A stretch of 64,000 nucleotides of DNA from Inquilinus sp. Marseille-Q2685 (GTDB taxonomy: Bacteria > Pseudomonadota > Alphaproteobacteria > DSM-16000 > Inquilinaceae): positions 62,001-126,000 of the forward strand of contig NZ_CAKAKL010000006.1 in assembly GCF_916619195.1 (NCBI RefSeq). The letters are read 5' to 3'. The first letter of the stretch is position 1; every line of letters begins with the position of its first letter. A program made the position numbers and the translations under genes. Below, one piece after another: positions 21,260-40,141 of this stretch. The notes under the pieces were generated by a model. It searched no databases. It saw only the letters and a program-made list of their open reading frames with translations, and was not told where the DNA came from.

Positions 21260-23434
21260 TCACGAGGACGACTTCAGCAGATCCGTGTCGAACGGCAGGG
21301 CGCGCAGGCGCTTGCCGGTGGCGGCGAAGATCGCGTTCGCCACCGCCGGGGCGACGGCGGCGGTCGCGGTCTCGCCGATGCCGCCCGGCGCCTCGGCGCT
21401 CCTGATCAGATGGGTCTCGACCACCGGCACCTCGTCGATCCGCATCGGCAGGTAGGTGTCGAAGTTGCCCTGCTCCACCCGCCCGTCGGCGAAGGTGATG
21501 TTGCCGTGCAGCGCCGCGGTCAGGCCGAAGATCGCGCCGCCTTGGACCTGCGCCTCGATCGTGTCCGGATTGACGGTCAGGCCGCAATCGACGGCGCAGA
21601 CCAGGCGATGGACCTTGATCGACCCGTCGCCCGCCACCTCGACCTCCGCCACCATCGAGACATAGCTGCCGAAGGCGAACTGCACCATGACGCCGCGGCC
21701 GTGGCCCTTCGGCATCGGCGTGCCCCAGCCGGCCTTTTCCGCCGCCAGGGTCAACGCGGCCAGGGCGCGCGGATTGTGGCCCAGCAGCGCCTTGCGGTAG
21801 GCGACCGGGTCCTGCTTCGCCGCGGCCGCCAGCTCGTCGATGAAGCTCTCGACCACGAAGACGTTGTGGGTCGGCCCGACGCCGCGCCACCAGGAGGTCG
21901 GCACGCCCTGTGGCTCGACCCGGACATATTCGACGCGGATCGCGGGGAAGGCGTAGGGCGGCTCGGCCGCGGCGTCGACCGCGTCCGGGTCGATGCCGTT
22001 CTGGAAGCCCGGCGGGAAGTAGCGCGCCATGATCGAGGATCCGGCGATGCGGTGGGTCCAGGCCACCGGCTTGCCCTGCGCGTCGAGGCCGGCCGCGAAG
22101 CGGTCGTAGTAGTACGGCCGGTACATGTCGTGCTGGGTGTCCTCCTCGCGGCTGTAGACCACCTTCACCGGGCCGTCGACCTGCTGCGCCACCTTGACCG
22201 CATGGGCGACGCCGTCGACCTCGAGCCGCCGGCCGAAGCCGCCGCCCAGCAGGTGGTTGTGGACCTGCACCTTCTCCTTCGGCAGGCCGGTGATCTCGGC
22301 GGCGACGCCCTGGGCCATGGTCGGCACCTGGGTGCCGACCCAGATGTCGCAGCCGTCCTTCCGCACATGCACCGTGCAGTTCATCGGCTCCATCGTCGCA
22401 GGGGCCAGGAACGGCACCTGGTAGATCGCCTCCAGCCGCTGCGCCGCGCCGGCCAGCGCCTTCTCGGCGTCGCCGTCGTTGCGCGCCACGGCGCCGGGCT
22501 TCTTCGATTCCTCCTCCAGCGCCCGGACGATATCGGCGCTGCTGACATTCGCGTTCGGGCCGTCGTCCCACTGCACGGCGGCGGCCTCGAGCCCCTTCTT
22601 GGCGGCGCCCATATGGTCGGCGACCACGGCCACGGCGGCGTCGGTCTTCACCACCTGGCGCACGCCCTTGACCGCCATCGCCGCGGCCTCGTCGACCGTC
22701 TTCGGCTTGCCGCCGGTCACCGGCGAGATCGCGATCGCCGCCACCTTCATGCCCGGCAGCTTGACGTCGATGCCGAACTCCGCCTTGCCGTTCACCTTGT
22801 CCGGCGAGTCGAGGCGCTTGGCCGGCTTGCCCAGCAGGGTGAAGTCCTTCGGATCCTTCAGCGCCACGCTCTTCGGATCCGGCACCGGCAGCGTCGCGGC
22901 CAGGTCGACCAGCTCCCCGTAGCTCAGGCTGCGCTTGCCGTCGGTGACGGCGCCGCGCTCGGCCTTCAGGGTCTTCGGATCGACCTTCCACTGCTGGGCG
23001 GCGGCGGCGACCAGCATGGTGCGGGCGACCGCGCCGGCCTGGCGCAGCGGCGTCCAGAAGGCGCGGATCGAGGTCGACCCGCCGGTCGCCTGGCTGCCCA
23101 GCAGCGCGTTGCCGTAGGCCGCGTCGTCCGGCGGCGAATGCTCGATCCGGACCTGGTCCAGCCCGACCTCCAGCTCCTCCGCCAGCAGCATGGCCTCGGC
23201 GGTGTAGATGCCCTGCCCCATCTCGGCCGAGGGCATCACCAGCGTCACCAGCCCCTTGGGGTCCATGCGGATGAAGGCGTTCGGCACGAAGCGGTGCGAC
23301 ACCTGGGTCTCGGCCAGGGCCGGGCGCAGCGCCGGCGGCAGGGCGACGGTGAGGGCAAGGCCGCCGCCGATTGCGGCGCCGACCTTGAGGAACCCGCGGC
23401 GGTCGAGCCGGGAGTTCAGCGAACCATCAGGCAT
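21260..23434 (-). CDS. Molybdenum hydroxylase large subunit (IorB/AldH-like), Tat-exported
   Basis: 724 residues of the isoquinoline 1-oxidoreductase/aldehyde dehydrogenase beta-subunit type, which binds a molybdopterin cytosine dinucleotide cofactor and hydroxylates aldehydes or N-heterocycles using water. The N-terminus carries a twin-arginine signal (RRGFLKVGAAIGGGLALTV), so the folded cofactor-loaded enzyme should be exported. Family segments include MPSAEMGQGIYTAEAMLLAE near 55 and the C-terminal GGIGETATAAVAPAVANAIF with the catalytic glutamate motif GETAT. The start at 23434 follows GGGAGGGACC. Substrate unknown. Confidence 0.92.
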   Translation of the reverse strand: MPDGSLNSRLDRRGFLKVGAAIGGGLALTVALPPALRPALAETQVSHRFVPNAFIRMDPKGLVTLVMPSAEMGQGIYTAEAMLLAEELEVGLDQVRIEHSPPDDAAYGNALLGSQATGGSTSIRAFWTPLRQAGAVARTMLVAAAAQQWKVDPKTLKAERGAVTDGKRSLSYGELVDLAATLPVPDPKSVALKDPKDFTLLGKPAKRLDSPDKVNGKAEFGIDVKLPGMKVAAIAISPVTGGKPKTVDEAAAMAVKGVRQVVKTDAAVAVVADHMGAAKKGLEAAAVQWDDGPNANVSSADIVRALEEESKKPGAVARNDGDAEKALAGAAQRLEAIYQVPFLAPATMEPMNCTVHVRKDGCDIWVGTQVPTMAQGVAAEITGLPKEKVQVHNHLLGGGFGRRLEVDGVAHAVKVAQQVDGPVKVVYSREEDTQHDMYRPYYYDRFAAGLDAQGKPVAWTHRIAGSSIMARYFPPGFQNGIDPDAVDAAAEPPYAFPAIRVEYVRVEPQGVPTSWWRGVGPTHNVFVVESFIDELAAAAKQDPVAYRKALLGHNPRALAALTLAAEKAGWGTPMPKGHGRGVMVQFAFGSYVSMVAEVEVAGDGSIKVHRLVCAVDCGLTVNPDTIEAQVQGGAIFGLTAALHGNITFADGRVEQGNFDTYLPMRIDEVPVVETHLIRSAEAPGGIGETATAAVAPAVANAIFAATGKRLRALPFDTDLLKSSS

Positions 23435-35509: not shown

Positions 35510-36538
35510 TCAGGCGGCCTTGCCCAGATGGCCGTCCTTGACCAGAACTTCGGCGATCTGGACGGCGTTCAGCGCCGCGCCTTTACGGAGATTGTCGGCG
35601 ACCACCCAGAAGGACAGGCCGTTCTCGACCGTGCTGTCCTCGCGGATGCGGCTGACATAGACCAGATCCTCGCCGGCGCATTCGACCGGGGTGACGTAGC
35701 CCTCATCGGCGCGGTGGTCGACCACCGAGATCCCCGGCGCCCGCTTCAGCGCGGCCCGCGCTTCCTCGGCCGAGATCGGGTTCTCGCACTCGATGTTCAC
35801 CATCTCGGAATGGCCGATGAAGACCGGCACGCGCACGCAATGCGACACGACCTTGATGGCGGGGTCGAGGATCTTCTTGGTCTCGGCCACCATCTTCCAC
35901 TCCTCCTTCGTCGACCCGTCGTCCATGAAGACGTCGATATGCGGGATGACGTTGAAGGCGATCTGCTTGGTGAACCGCTCCTTGACGATCGGGTCGTTCA
36001 CATAGACGGCGCGGGTCTGGTTGAACAGCTCGTCCATTGCCTCCTTGCCGGCGCCGGAGACCGACTGGTAGGTCGAGACCACGACGCGGCGGATCTTGGC
36101 CAGCTGGTGCAGCGGCTTCAGCGCCACCACCATCTGGATGGTGGAGCAGTTCGGGTTGGCGATGATGCCCTTCCTGCGGAAGCCGGCGATCGCCTGCGGG
36201 TTGACCTCGGGCACCACCAGCGGCACGTCCGGGTCCATCCGGAACTGCGAGGTGTTGTCGATCACCACCGCCCCGGCCCTGGCCGCGCGGGGCCCGTGCA
36301 CCGCCGAGACCTTGGCGCCCGGCGAGGACAGCACGATGTCGATGCCCTTGAAGTCGAACTTGGCGAGGTCCTGCACGTCGAGGACGTCGTCCTCGCCGAA
36401 GGAGACCTGGCGCCCGACCGACCGCTCCGAGGCCAGCGCGACGACCTCGTCGACCGGGAATTCCCGTTCGGCGAGGATGGAAAGCATCTCGCGACCGACA
36501 TTGCCGGTGGCACCGATGACCGCGACCCGATAGCCCAT
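35510..36538 (-). CDS. asd: Aspartate-semialdehyde dehydrogenase
   Basis: 342 residues. It reduces beta-aspartyl phosphate with NADPH to aspartate semialdehyde, the branch point to lysine/diaminopimelate, threonine and methionine. The NADP motif is VAVIGATGNVGREMLSIL. The active-site cysteine is C131 (IIANPNCSTIQMV), and the substrate-binding part includes STYQSVSGAGKEAMDEL and HCVRVPVFIGHSE. The start at 36538 gives the standard MGYRVAVIGATG; a longer frame to 36619 has no support. It is a single gene and likely essential for cell-wall synthesis. Confidence 0.97.
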   Translation of the reverse strand: MGYRVAVIGATGNVGREMLSILAEREFPVDEVVALASERSVGRQVSFGEDDVLDVQDLAKFDFKGIDIVLSSPGAKVSAVHGPRAARAGAVVIDNTSQFRMDPDVPLVVPEVNPQAIAGFRRKGIIANPNCSTIQMVVALKPLHQLAKIRRVVVSTYQSVSGAGKEAMDELFNQTRAVYVNDPIVKERFTKQIAFNVIPHIDVFMDDGSTKEEWKMVAETKKILDPAIKVVSHCVRVPVFIGHSEMVNIECENPISAEEARAALKRAPGISVVDHRADEGYVTPVECAGEDLVYVSRIREDSTVENGLSFWVVADNLRKGAALNAVQIAEVLVKDGHLGKAA

Positions 36539-36684
36539 ATCCGTAATCCGGCTGTTCGATTGCTGCAGGGGACGCACTCGGTAGAATGTATGCCGATCCG
36601 CGCGCAATGGGACAGCCATGCGATTCGCGCGCGGCGATCATGCCGCCAGGTGCCGGCTGGCGGCTGGACAAGGGAGGAACGGAG

Positions 36685-37017
36685 ATGGCCGAGAGGCTGC
36701 CGAGCTATTCCGCCTTCTGGCCCTATTACCTGCGCGAGCATGCGCAGCCGCGGACCCGGGCGCTGCATTTCTTCGGCACCAGCCTGGCGCTGCTCTGCCT
36801 CGTGCTCCTGATCGTCACCGGCAGCTGGTGGTGGCTCCTGGCGGCGCTGGTCTCGGGATACCTTTTCGCCTGGATCGGCCACTTCTTCGTCGAGCATAAC
36901 CGCCCGGCGACCTTCACCTATCCGCTGTGGTCGCTCTTCAGCGACTTCCGCATGTACGGGCTGTGGGTCTCCGGCCGGCTGGAGGACGAGCTGCGCCGGG
37001 CGGGAGTGCAGCCGTAA
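36685..37017 (+). CDS. DUF962/Mpo1-like membrane protein
   Basis: 110 residues with two to three membrane helices (FFGTSLALLCLVLLIV, WWWLLAALVSGYLFAWIGHF). The conserved histidine motifs HFFGTS and GHFFVEHNRPATF match Mpo1-like proteins. The yeast member is an iron-dependent dioxygenase in fatty-acid alpha-oxidation; bacterial members are uncharacterised. GGAGG precedes the ATG at 36685. Confidence 0.85.
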   Translation: MAERLPSYSAFWPYYLREHAQPRTRALHFFGTSLALLCLVLLIVTGSWWWLLAALVSGYLFAWIGHFFVEHNRPATFTYPLWSLFSDFRMYGLWVSGRLEDELRRAGVQP

Positions 37018-37090
37018 CGCTGCAGTCGCGCCCCTGCCCCTCATACCGGCAAGCTCGTGATCCGACTCTTTCCTCTCCCAAGAAAGAACC

Positions 37091-37155
37091 GTCATTGCGA
37101 GGAGGCGAAGCCGACGAAGCAATCCAGGGGCCAGTGCGAGCCGCCCTGGATTGCT
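37091..37155. repeat. Palindromic repeat doublet, family C (left part, split by the IS110 element)
   Basis: GTCATTGCGAGGAGGCGAAG continues to GACGAAGCAATCCAGG (to about 37127), and an inverted partner begins at 37145 (CCTGGATTGCT). The partner is cut at its core and resumes at 38810 with CTTCGCTGCGCTCGCAATGA. Before insertion the two units faced each other as in the other doublets of this window. Confidence 0.8.
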
Positions 37156-37576
37156 CACATGAGGAGTGTATGGGTCAAGGGGGGGCGAGAGGTCTTTCGT
37201 TGTTGCTGGCGGCGATGGCGTGACCGATGGCGCGCGCAGATCAAGTCAAGGCCGGCCCGCAGGGGCGCCGCGAAGCGGCTTGGTCTTGACGTGATCGAGC
37301 GCGCCATCAAGCTGGTGCGGTCGGCAGCACCGGAGCGGAGGGCCGTGGCGATCCCTGGGTCGAGCCGGTGCGACGATCTGGGTTGCCGGCCAGATCAAAC
37401 TCACATTCGGTCGTCGCGCGAGGCGACAGCACCACGCTTCCGCTTGCGGCGGGCAGGCTCGAGAGGACGAGACCAGTCTTCGTTGCGGCGATGAGCCATG
37501 CAATCCATCGGTTCGTCCACCCGGATCGGCCGAGGCTGATCGGGCCTCGGCGGAACGGCTGGGCGGCGGCCTGTGG
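37156..37576 (-). ncRNA. Candidate bridge RNA region of the IS110-family element
   Basis: This is the long non-coding end downstream of the transposase. Read on the minus strand, 37507-37500 is TGGATTGC, identical to the left target flank plus core (37147-37154). After a 12-base spacer, 37487-37478 is CGCAACGAAG, complementary to the right flank at 9 of 10 bases (38810-38819, core included). ATGTGAG at 37406-37400 is complementary to the core plus the element's left end. A hairpin CCGAGGC/GCCTCGG lies at 37530-37550. Exact RNA ends are unknown. Confidence 0.6.
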
Positions 37577-38734
37577 TCAGGCCGTCTTGATCACCGCGCC
37601 CTCGATGACGACGCCGGCTGTGACGTACTTCCACAAGGCCACCAGAAGCTTGCGCGCCAGGGCGACGATGGCGCGCTTGCGGTCGCGCTGGCCACGGGCC
37701 TGGAACCAGCGTGCCAGGGCCGACTGCGGCTGGTGCCGCAGCCACAGCCAGGCGAGCTGGATCATCACGGTGCGCAGCCGCGGATTGCCGGCCTTCGACA
37801 CACCCTGCTCATGCATGATGCTGCCGCTGCGCCACGGCGTCGCCGCCAGCCCCGCATAGGCGGCCACCTGGCGGCGATTGGCGAAGGATCGATAGAAGCC
37901 CTCCGACCAGAGAACCGCCGCAAAGGTGGCGCCGATCCCCCGCACTGCCGACAGCATCGCCACCGGCTCCGAGGCGGCCGTCTCACCGGCGCCGGTCTCG
38001 GCCAGCACGGCCTCCTGCTCGGCCTCGACCCTCTTGATCTGGTCGACCAGCAGCTCGAGCCGGTCCAACTCGCGGCTGATCTGCGCCGTCAAGTGCGGCG
38101 GCAGCGCCCGCCCGTCGGCCGTGTGCAAGGCCGCAAGCCGCTCCCGCCGGTCGCGCCGCTGCGGCGCGTAGTCGGTGATACCCTGCGCGAACAGAAGCCC
38201 CTTGATCCGGTTCACATGCGTGGTCCGCTCACAGATCAGCGTCTGGCGTTCGCGGCACAGCCGGCGCCGATCCTCCTCTTCCGGAGAGGGCGCCACCACC
38301 ATGGCGCAGACCCGCGGCTCGCCGCGCTTGTAGGCCAGAAGCGCCCGCAGCAGCGCCTCGCCGTCGAGCCGGTCCGTCTTGGCCCGCCGGCGCCGACGCG
38401 GCGCCGCAATCGACGCCGGATCCACCACGTGGCTCTCGATCCCCTCCCGACACAGAACCCGGTGCAGCCAGAACCCGTCCAGCCCAGTCTCCTGAACGGT
38501 GATGATCGGATAGCTCCGGCCCGTCCGCATCGCCGCCTTGCGCCTGAACTCTGCAAACAGCGCCAGCAGCCCCGCGACATCGCCCGCCCCGACGCTGTGC
38601 TTGGACATCTTCTCCCCGCCGCCGGGCGACAGTGAGGTGATCAGCCAACTCGAACGGCTCAGTTCCAATGACACAAAAATTGCGCCAATCTGTGTCCGGA
38701 TAGCGGCCTGTCCCTCGCAAGGTTGATCGAGCAT
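37577..38734 (-). CDS. IS110-family transposase (RuvC-like DEDD recombinase)
   Basis: 385 residues. The N-terminal DEDD domain has acidic residues at E24 (VSLELSRSSW), E82 (QETGLDG), D121 and D124 (KTDRLDGE). The first is Glu where most IS110 proteins have Asp. The C-terminal Tnp20 domain has GIGATFAAVLWSEGFY and GLAATPWRSGSIMHEQGVSK, where the serine in WRSGS is in the position of the catalytic nucleophile. I chose ATG 38734, with GGAG upstream, over a TTG at 38764. It appears intact. Confidence 0.92.
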   Translation of the reverse strand: MLDQPCEGQAAIRTQIGAIFVSLELSRSSWLITSLSPGGGEKMSKHSVGAGDVAGLLALFAEFRRKAAMRTGRSYPIITVQETGLDGFWLHRVLCREGIESHVVDPASIAAPRRRRRAKTDRLDGEALLRALLAYKRGEPRVCAMVVAPSPEEEDRRRLCRERQTLICERTTHVNRIKGLLFAQGITDYAPQRRDRRERLAALHTADGRALPPHLTAQISRELDRLELLVDQIKRVEAEQEAVLAETGAGETAASEPVAMLSAVRGIGATFAAVLWSEGFYRSFANRRQVAAYAGLAATPWRSGSIMHEQGVSKAGNPRLRTVMIQLAWLWLRHQPQSALARWFQARGQRDRKRAIVALARKLLVALWKYVTAGVVIEGAVIKTA

Positions 38735-38809
38735 CGGTCGTCTCCAGGGTGAGTGGGATAGCAACCTCAGCCTGGGCCGACTCCTGGCCGCTATCCACCC
38801 TCATGGAAT

Positions 38810-38830
38810 CTTCGCTGCGCTCGCAATGAC
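38810..38830. repeat. Palindromic repeat, family C (right part of the split unit)
   Basis: CTTCGCTGCGCTCGCAATGA continues the unit interrupted at 37155. Together with the left part it restores a unit of the form CTGGATTGC-TTCGCTGCG-CTCGCAATGAC. Confidence 0.75.
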
Positions 38831-38861
38831 GATCTTTTCATGGACTCGCTGGTATCAGCTG

Positions 38862-38877
38862 TCATTGCCGGGCTTGA
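38862..38877. repeat. Palindromic repeat, family B (left half, split by IS481)
   Basis: TCATTGCCGGGCTTGA ends at the IS481 boundary; the other half CTTGACCCGGCAATCCAG starts at 40142. CTTGA is present on both sides. Removing the IS and one CTTGA regenerates a perfect family B palindrome. Confidence 0.85.
38873..38877 (+). repeat. 5-bp target site duplication (CTTGA), left copy
   Basis: CTTGA immediately precedes the IS481 terminal repeat; the same five bases follow the right end at 40142-40146. This marks a transposition event rather than a rearrangement. Confidence 0.85.
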
Positions 38878-40141
38878 TGTATGGCCCGGGGAGATGGCGG
38901 ACACCTGTTCGGAGACATGGCGGACAGATCATGGGTCGGTCAAGTCGATGGTGGCGATGAGGTGGCTGGCGAAGAAGACGCCGAAGCGGCCGTCGGTGGT
39001 CTGTGGCCGAATGGCGACGCGTTCGCCGCGGAAGGCCTGGGGGACCTTCCAGAGCCGGCCGCGGAAGCTGACATAGGCTTTGGTGGTGCCGACGGTGCGG
39101 ACGAGATCGAGGCTGTCGTACTCGACCTCGGGCAGGCGGCTGGGCATGGCGCGGGGGCTGGAGCGGTAGCGGCTGCCGGGGACCTGCTGCTGGAGCGCCT
39201 GGTGCGGGCGCTGCCAGTTGTAGAGCTCGCGCCAGCGGTCGAAGGCGCGCTGGGCGGCGGCGAGGTCGGGGAAGGGCTCGAGGGCGAAGACCTCGGCCGC
39301 GAGGGTGCGGTGGAAGCGCTCGATCTTGCCGCGGCTCTGGGGATGATAGGGTCGGCTGTACAGGACCCGGATGCCGAGCTTGAGGAACCAGACCGCAAGC
39401 CGGGTCCAGCGCTCGCCCGAGGCGTCGCCCCAGGGGGCGCCGTTGTCGATGAAGATGGCCTCGGGCAGGCCGTGTCGCCGGAAGGTCGCCGTGAGCCGGT
39501 CCTGCACGGTCTGGCTCTTCTGATCGGCACAGGCCTGCAGACAAGGCGAGAAGCGGGAGTGGTCGTCGAGCACGGTCAAGGGATAGCACCGGCCGCCCCG
39601 GACGAGCGGCTCCCAGCCTTTGAAGTCCATCTGCCACAGCCGGTTCGGCGCCGCCGCCTCGAAACGCCGATAGGGCTGGGTCGCCTCGGCTGCCACCGGA
39701 TCGATCCGGCCGTGCCGGACCAGGATCGCGTGCACGGTCGAGGCCGCCGGCGGTGCGATCCCGTCCCAGGCCAGGCGGCGGACGATCTTGCGGGCGCCCC
39801 ACGCCGGATGCGCATCCCGCACCGCCAGCACTGCCGTCTCCAGCTCTGCCGTGCTGCGGCCGGGGCTCACATGTGGCCGGCGCGAGCGGTCCGCCAGCTC
39901 GGCATCGCCGGCCTGCCACCGCGCCAGCCATTTGTAGCCCACATCCGGGCTGATCCCGAACCGGCGGCACAGCTCCCGACGGTTCGCCCCCTCCTGCTCC
40001 GCCAGCCGGACAAATTCCCGACGCTGCTCCATGACCGACACCTCCCGCCACGCCATGGCCGCCTCCCAAGACGCCGATGCCATGGCTCAATGTGTCAGTC
40101 ATCTCCCAGAACACCCGTCTGGGATCTCCCCGGGCCATACA
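38878..40141 (-). mobile_element. IS481-family insertion sequence
   Basis: 1,264 bp bounded by terminal inverted repeats starting TGTATGGCCCGGGGAGAT at both ends (38878-38895 and the inverse at 40124-40141). Weaker similarity continues to about 49 bp, including repeated GACA boxes likely bound by transposase. A 5-bp duplication CTTGA flanks it. It contains one intact transposase gene and has landed in the middle of a palindromic repeat, only 66 bp from the IS110-family element. Confidence 0.9.
38929..40056 (-). CDS. IS481-family DDE transposase
   Basis: 375 residues. The N-terminal helix-turn-helix is ANRRELCRRFGISPDVGYKW. The rve-type catalytic core has D144 (WQMDFKGWEP), D204 (IFIDNGAPWG) and E246 (SRGKIERFH). 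The C-terminal segment is YVSFRGRLWKVPQAFRGERV. All three catalytic acids are present, so it may be active. The ATG at 40056 has GGGAGG upstream and gives the family N-terminus MAWREVSVMEQRREFV; the longer start at 40083 is less likely. Confidence 0.93.
   Translation of the reverse strand: MAWREVSVMEQRREFVRLAEQEGANRRELCRRFGISPDVGYKWLARWQAGDAELADRSRRPHVSPGRSTAELETAVLAVRDAHPAWGARKIVRRLAWDGIAPPAASTVHAILVRHGRIDPVAAEATQPYRRFEAAAPNRLWQMDFKGWEPLVRGGRCYPLTVLDDHSRFSPCLQACADQKSQTVQDRLTATFRRHGLPEAIFIDNGAPWGDASGERWTRLAVWFLKLGIRVLYSRPYHPQSRGKIERFHRTLAAEVFALEPFPDLAAAQRAFDRWRELYNWQRPHQALQQQVPGSRYRSSPRAMPSRLPEVEYDSLDLVRTVGTTKAYVSFRGRLWKVPQAFRGERVAIRPQTTDGRFGVFFASHLIATIDLTDP

Follow-up and report, generated by a model that had tools for sequence, protein, structure and literature searches.

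The window analysed here, a 64,000-nucleotide stretch of the genome of Inquilinus sp. Marseille-Q2685 to which coordinates refer unless stated otherwise, contains on the minus strand at 37154-38811 an insertion sequence of 1658 bp that is a member of the IS1111 group of the IS110 family. The genome has four copies of this element, the window's included (0, 0, 1 and 2 differences), which lie on separate contigs with dissimilar outer flanks and have their boundaries at the same position of a REP-like palindrome. The core dinucleotide CT (AG in transposase orientation) is present at both element ends (37154-37155 and 38810-38811). The sequence also contains a subterminal inverted repeat, CATGAGG, at 37158-37164 on the plus strand (the RNA-side end), with its partner at 38799-38805 on the minus strand at the opposite end. 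IS1111 elements are described in PMC11208160 and PMC11187229 as having subterminal inverted repeats of about 7-17 bp and asymmetric terminal extensions of 7 and 3 bp. The CATGAGG/CCTCATG repeat, perfect over 7 bp, is at the low end of this range, and when ATGAGG is taken as the repeat (by eye) the extensions are AGATTCC and GTG, so that repeat length and asymmetric extensions both agree with the IS1111 group. The repeat is longer in relatives, for example 12 bp and perfect in locus L055.

The longer non-coding region, 421 bp at 37156-37576 as an earlier, sequence-only reading had delimited it, lies downstream of the transposase gene and holds the match to the RNA model described below. That reading had placed the RNA at the transposase 3' end, as in IS1111-type elements, and the model match is indeed there; the narrow IS110 group (IS621 type) has its RNA upstream of the gene, an arrangement that this element does not share. 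No Rfam family matched 36500-39300 at E values up to 1. The non-coding end also contains a long imperfect hairpin at 37226-37308, outside the guide RNA; a 205-nt fold containing it has a z of -2.77, and L011 has a hairpin that resembles it by eye. A 384-aa integrase-like transposase frame, IS481-like by eye, directly adjoins the REP at 38929-40083, so the locus gathers mobile elements.

The transposase and its presumed first catalytic residue

The transposase gene (37577-38734, minus strand) was assigned by Pfam, NCBIfam and structural matches. Conservation of the upstream residues suggests that it starts at the ATG at 38734, for a predicted protein of 385 aa. As in other IS110-family proteins, the RuvC-like N-terminal domain (PF01548, 40.9 bits, cut-off 29) and the Transposase_20 C-terminal domain (PF02371, 54.6 bits, cut-off 21.3) are both present above their curated cut-offs, and NF033542 ('IS110 family RNA-guided transposase') scored 207.8 bits against a cut-off of 140 (343-aa version). 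A structure model (mean pLDDT 82.4, pTM 0.55) aligned to ISCro4 and IS621 over residues 17-381, which is most of the protein.

In an alignment of 34 sequences, E82, D124 and S303-G304 were invariant and D121 nearly so, and residue 24 was Glu in all 34. An S-x-E-L-S motif was found in 82 of the 86 loci sampled (see below); it was not readable in L029, L061, L063 and L084, whose frames are cut or out of frame there. The model puts E24 in the first strand (19-26). Structural alignment to IS621, the catalytic residues of which are given in PMC11208158, begins at residue 17 versus 4 (8wt6) and at 18 versus 5 (8wt9), and this offset between alignment starts, as distinct from a residue map, suggests that E24 is equivalent to D11 of IS621. 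In this clade, Glu appears to occupy the place of the first Asp in the DEDD tetrad. Among 29 other IS110-family loci (28 plus L141), the motif had Asp in 16, plus L154 and L157, and 11 were unreadable; L159, one of the 16 with Asp, gave a second, unrelated match with Glu. L141 lies in the same genome (contig C1, near 21507-21923 of that contig) and encodes a different IS110-family transposase of 346 aa with the usual Asp; the RNA model R1 found no match near it. Among the paper titles listed, none concerned a Glu substitution at the first catalytic position, which is no proof of its absence from print. The near-identical multiple copies suggest that Glu-bearing elements are active.

The insertion point in a REP-like palindrome

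Intact repeats elsewhere in the genome identify the flanks as the two parts of one interrupted REP-like palindrome, the presumptive target: the left part, core included, at 37090-37155 and the core plus right part at 38810-38831 (both plus strand). Flanks joined by script gave the repeat as it is found uninterrupted elsewhere, with the two-base core once. All four copies in the genome split the palindrome at TGGATTG-CT-TCG, in agreement with the earlier proposal that the natural target is a palindromic repeat. A genome-wide count gave 102 uninterrupted TGGATTGCTTCG half-sites (48 forward, 54 reverse) versus 0 for a control pattern read backward. When 30 half-sites on one contig were read further, they continued as TTCGTC in 17 and as TTCGCT in 13. 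Of the four element copies, three interrupt TTCGTC arms and one, the window's, a TTCGCT arm.

A same-genus empty site was sought in five genomes (G001-G005). In the best alignments, among the matches listed, no interrupted-versus-empty pair of the locus was found; flank matches extended only up to 37007-37016 of the window and ended before the REP. Because such a pair was not obtained, intact repeats of the same genome were used instead.

A predicted guide RNA with a conserved fold

Relatives were collected by a contig scan that kept the best 80 of 321, of which 78 belong, judged by their record titles, to Alphaproteobacteria (Bradyrhizobium, Mesorhizobium, Microvirga, Sphingomonas and others); the remaining two are L037, titled Proteobacteria only, and L050, titled Burkholderiales. 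Viral contigs added four loci, one of which (L091) appears to be on the same contig as L051, and the host's family added one more (a match in 2 of 17 genomes, its own included). The resulting 86 loci include the window. End motifs of the CCATGAG/CTCATG type failed for most loci and were replaced by AGAT[CT][CT][CT]ATG and CAT[AG][TC][AG]A[AG], which gave both ends in 61 loci. We kept 60 elements, L028 being excluded for a 3' motif that did not mark its real terminus; in all, 26 of the 86 loci were left out with ends not found or cut.

We built a covariance model, R1, from 29 relatives with the window's guide cluster left out. Use of such a model had been suggested together with the sequence-only reading, and R1 found the predicted seekRNA (or bridge RNA) at 37530-37355 on the minus strand with 133 bits (E 1.4e-32). 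The next match scored 10.7 bits, and the three weak matches in the window had E values of 0.15-0.96. R1 also matched 32 of the 32 other loci given to it (116-190 bits), with eight further weak matches in the relatives' loci of at most 19.5 bits (E 0.0024-0.51), and in the host genome it found all four copies and two further weak matches (E 0.098 and 0.42).

The consensus structure of these 29 representatives, from which the window's cluster is absent, has 37 pairs, of which 20 are changed on both sides. In 500 shuffles, which ignore sequence relatedness, none of five structure measures was reached, and slid controls paired 35-45% of cells versus 93% observed. The target-loop closing stem (helix 1), placed by the R1 alignment at 37461-37522 of the minus strand (arms 37522-37510 and 37474-37461), has 12 pairs, 7 of them changed on both sides, and 93.6% of cells paired. 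The absence of a covariation-supported loop around 37478-37507 would have spoken against the sequence-only reading; this stem closes the loop found there. Helix 3, which encloses the donor part (37362-37460, minus strand; arms 37460-37456 and 37366-37362), has 5 pairs, 4 of them changed on both sides. Folded alone, the window's RNA forms the same target-loop stem, and its stability is not beyond that of shuffles (z -0.32), which counts against the prediction; structural support comes from covariation.

Target guides follow the flanking DNA

The left target guide, TGGATTGC (37500-37507, minus strand), repeats the left flank and the adjoining first base of the core at 8 of 8 positions; we confirmed the identity between 37507-37500 and 37147-37154 from which the sequence-only reading had started. 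The right target guide, AACGA plus the AG core (37478-37484, minus strand), is complementary to the core and right flank and matches at 4 of 5 positions outside the core. That reading had given it ten bases, CGCAACGAAG at 37487-37478, which agree with CGCAGCGAAG (the reverse complement of 38810-38819) at 9 of 10. The count is correct and the length is not: 5 nt plus the AG core track the flank, the outer three bases (37485-37487) fall outside the tracking positions, and two of these three belong to a conserved GCCG at the inner stem. Because the outer three bases do not follow the flanks, a 9 of 10 match overstates the right guide.

To compare guides with targets across the 60 elements, the right guide was located without reference to the flanks, as AG followed by a conserved stem motif (last match, 60/60), and the left guide by an upstream CCG-type and a downstream TGG-type motif (60/60). 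Single linkage at no more than 5 differences of 14 sorted the elements into 30 guide clusters, each with one representative. The left guides of the 30 representatives matched their own targets at a mean of 5.4 of 8 positions in a fixed register, compared with 2.40 (sd 0.24, maximum 3.5) when targets were permuted 20,000 times; with a shift of one allowed, the mean was 6.8 of 8 versus 3.24 (maximum 4.33). For the right guides, the mean was 4.6 of 6 versus 1.53 (sd 0.21, maximum 2.53). The observed means were never reached in 20,000 permutations. For 58 of the 60 elements, no target of another cluster scored as well as the element's own; the exceptions, L027 and L056, each had one equally scoring other-cluster target of 59. 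Changes in the guides thus track changes in the flanks across genomes, a comparison that the sequence-only reading had proposed, and its interpretation of this region as the target loop is well supported.

By position, right-guide bases -1 to -5 matched at frequencies of 1.00, 0.93, 0.90, 0.87 and 0.73 (controls 0.23-0.27), with position -6 and outward at control level. Left-guide positions 1-7 matched at 0.57-0.80 versus 0.23-0.28, and position 8 at 0.13 versus 0.24. The core had been ascribed to both guides. This holds for the AG of the right guide, but the core-pairing base of the left guide matched at 0.53 in representatives versus a control of 0.53 and so carries no evidence. Some elements fit less well. 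A flank-driven search placed the best match away from the homologous position in L027, L055 and L059, which counts against the reading, and the right-side flank match with core was weak in L049, L071, L073, L074, L065 and L067 (5 of 8) and in L079 (4 of 8).

Copies with the same non-coding end at unrelated flanks, which would argue against guided insertion, were not found among the four copies of the host genome or among the six Bradyrhizobium copies (L011-L015 and L017) that are near-identical and resolved at both ends. The latter are also at CGA-AG-CAATCCA; a seventh copy, L016, was left out on the 3' side as its end was lost. L018, L022 and L024 share 84-86% transposase identity with L011, L061 and L064, yet the first three elements have the left guide TGGTCTGC instead of TGGATTGC and the flank CAGACCA instead of CAATCCA. 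The clade shows what its sequences indicate to be natural retargeting between elements with 84-86% identical transposases.

The window's right guide reads as CTTCGTT, from which the TTCGTC and TTCGCT arms each differ by one mismatch. This mismatch, a point against the guided reading, is at position -4 for the window's copy and at -5 for the other three.

Donor guides follow the element ends

The right donor guide, ATGTGAG (37400-37406, minus strand), is identical in sequence to the 3' terminus of the element, AG core included; its complementarity to the core plus left element end, at 37406-37400, had been recognized in the sequence-only reading, which missed the second donor guide at 37437-37441. 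The right donor guide equals the element 3' end in 59 of 60 elements (ATGTGAG in 45, ATATAAG in 13 and ATACAAG in 1), and L019 differs. The left donor guide, GGAAG (37437-37441, minus strand), is complementary to the transposase-upstream end (ATTCC) at 4 of 5 positions. GGAAT pairs with ATTCC-ended elements in 16 of 17 cases, the exception being the GGAAG of the window, whose one mismatch counts against the guided reading. The guide reads GGGAT in all 42 elements with ATCCC or ATCCT ends, where a G-T wobble accommodates the final base of ATCCT; L070, which makes up the 60, has no match to the left donor-guide motif. As an alternative second donor guide we considered GATCT, 3' of ATGTGAG, the letters of which vary regardless of the ends. 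It was dropped because GATCTGG and CCAGATC within this RNA pair with each other (by eye; a stem in the window fold); the GGAAT/GGGAT position 5' of ATGTGAG, not GATCT, tracks the element ends.

Downstream of the transposase match, at a distance of 188-440 bases, two loci, L045 and L047, have a 126-bp tandem duplication (126/126 identical in L045, 125/126 in L047). Its exact boundaries are two ATGTGAG words, that of the donor guide and that of the element end; in L044 the segment is not duplicated. The duplication resembles the product of recombination between the element and its own guide. At the 3' end of L012, terminal element bases and adjoining flank are tandemly repeated, 24 bases apart.

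Most of 34 elements examined have a TTGAC-type hexamer about 20-24 bases from the 3' end and pointing toward it, which may represent the -35 of a promoter arising at a circle junction. For the 34 elements the mean best score was 7.94 of 12, compared with 6.80 (sd 0.84) after letter shuffling. We do not claim a junction promoter because -10 matches were poor except in the CATATAAG group.

Discussion

We are highly confident that this is an IS1111-group element with a downstream two-loop guide RNA that selects an arm of a REP-like palindrome and directs joining at the core. What was observed directly is the presence of the guides, the way they covary with flanks and ends, a conserved fold and one insertion point common to the four copies. 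Pairing of two guides that flank a two-base core is supported as far as sequence allows. By analogy with published IS1111 and IS621 work, the non-coding end would be transcribed together with the transposase gene and processed to a two-loop guide RNA that joins the transposase in an RNA-protein complex. In the target loop, the 5' guide TGGATTG (7 nt) and the 3' guide AACGA plus AG would pair with opposite strands, each on its own side of the AG/CT core, and the complex would thereby select TGGATTG-CT-TCG in a palindrome arm. In the donor loop, GGAAG and ATGTGAG would read the two abutted element ends of a circular form. The transposase would then join donor to target by strand exchange at the core dinucleotide, with no target bases lost or gained. 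The guide very probably chooses the landing site, since the element's own guide matches its palindrome and the guides of relatives match their own, different sites.

Other explanations account for part of these data. Viewed in the window by themselves, the matches could be chance agreements between short words of a GC-rich repeat and some place in 421 bases, as single words are only 7-10 bases long and, in relatives, the three outermost positions of the right match do not track the flanks. However, anchors independent of the flanks place guides in all 60 elements, the 30 clusters track their targets far beyond permutation, and R1, built without the window's cluster, still finds the RNA; the permutation result already refutes chance, to which we assign a practically negligible probability. 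The common site might instead reflect spread by homologous recombination between REP repeats, for which the abundance of the half-site (102) and the near-identity of the copies would be suitable. Yet the palindromes, and the arms beside the core, differ between copies while insertion is always at the same base, the copies lie on different contigs with differing outer flanks, and relatives with other guides occupy other targets, all of which makes this origin extremely improbable.

ISPpu9 offers a precedent for a different division of labor. It is inserted in REPs, and its downstream RNA gene is described in PMC8450116 as a regulator of the transposase gene; by comparison with this RNA (Ssr9), the transposase could recognize the target itself, the RNA could regulate transposase expression, and the matching words could be passive relics of captured target DNA. 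In the elements studied here, however, the words flank one conserved internal loop, with opposite strand sense and with the core included, an arrangement that pairing needs and that capture would not produce. The donor-end words covary too, and in the experiments reported by Siddiquee 2024 (PMC11187229) the seekRNA of IS1111 elements sets the target. We consider regulation with passive relics highly improbable.

The sampled relatives amount to a natural specificity table for IS1111 guide RNAs, with 30 guide clusters. Flank tracking extends over 7 bases on one side and over the 5 next to the core on the other, and the donor guides change with the element ends. The window's right guide fits both unequal palindrome arms with one mismatch each, a testable case of a tolerant guide. 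The conserved Glu at the apparent first catalytic position raises the question of whether Asp there is essential in the family. A broader reading, in which this mainly alphaproteobacterial clade consists of RNA-guided recombinases with Glu at the first metal-binding position and a DNA copy of the donor guide that can be used as an element end, is speculative and in our judgment unlikely.

The kind of element is already known (described in 2024) from PMC11187229, PMC11208160, PMC1525189 and PMC8450116, in the parts that bear on it, and the present element is thus a new member and a clear new example. A close parallel by description is ISPa11, from a REP of Pseudomonas aeruginosa, one of the IS1111 elements for which PMC11187229 reports experiments showing a downstream seekRNA. 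The two share the transposase family, the downstream non-coding RNA, the order of guides and insertion at one point of a REP; the REP is another one, and the relatives here are mainly from Alphaproteobacteria. In IS1111 seekRNAs, the match to the top strand precedes that to the bottom strand (PMC11187229), and here likewise the left guide (complement of the strand read with the transposase gene) is 5' of the right guide. IS110-family elements in REPs were reported in 2006 (PMC1525189), among them the rhizobial ISRm19 of Sinorhizobium meliloti, which resembles the present element by description in that four of four copies are in REPs; the 2006 account, in its treatment of these insertions, is given without a guide RNA. 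ISPpu9 shares AG on both sides, a fixed REP position and a same-strand RNA gene downstream of the transposase gene, but PMC8450116, in the relevant sections, treats this RNA, Ssr9, as a regulator. For IS1111 elements, PMC11208160, which sets out the bridge RNA model for IS110, gives predicted RNAs in 93.0%, based in the portion concerned on models and manual inspection of examples; its covariation analysis is described for IS110-type elements with the RNA in the left end. The bridge RNA recombinases of the IS110 group, IS621 and ISCro4 (PMC11208160; PMC11208158 for IS621), differ in having the RNA upstream of the gene and a guide order that is reversed relative to the transposase strand (PMC11187229), and IS621 has Asp (D11; PMC11208158) where the clade described here appears to have Glu.
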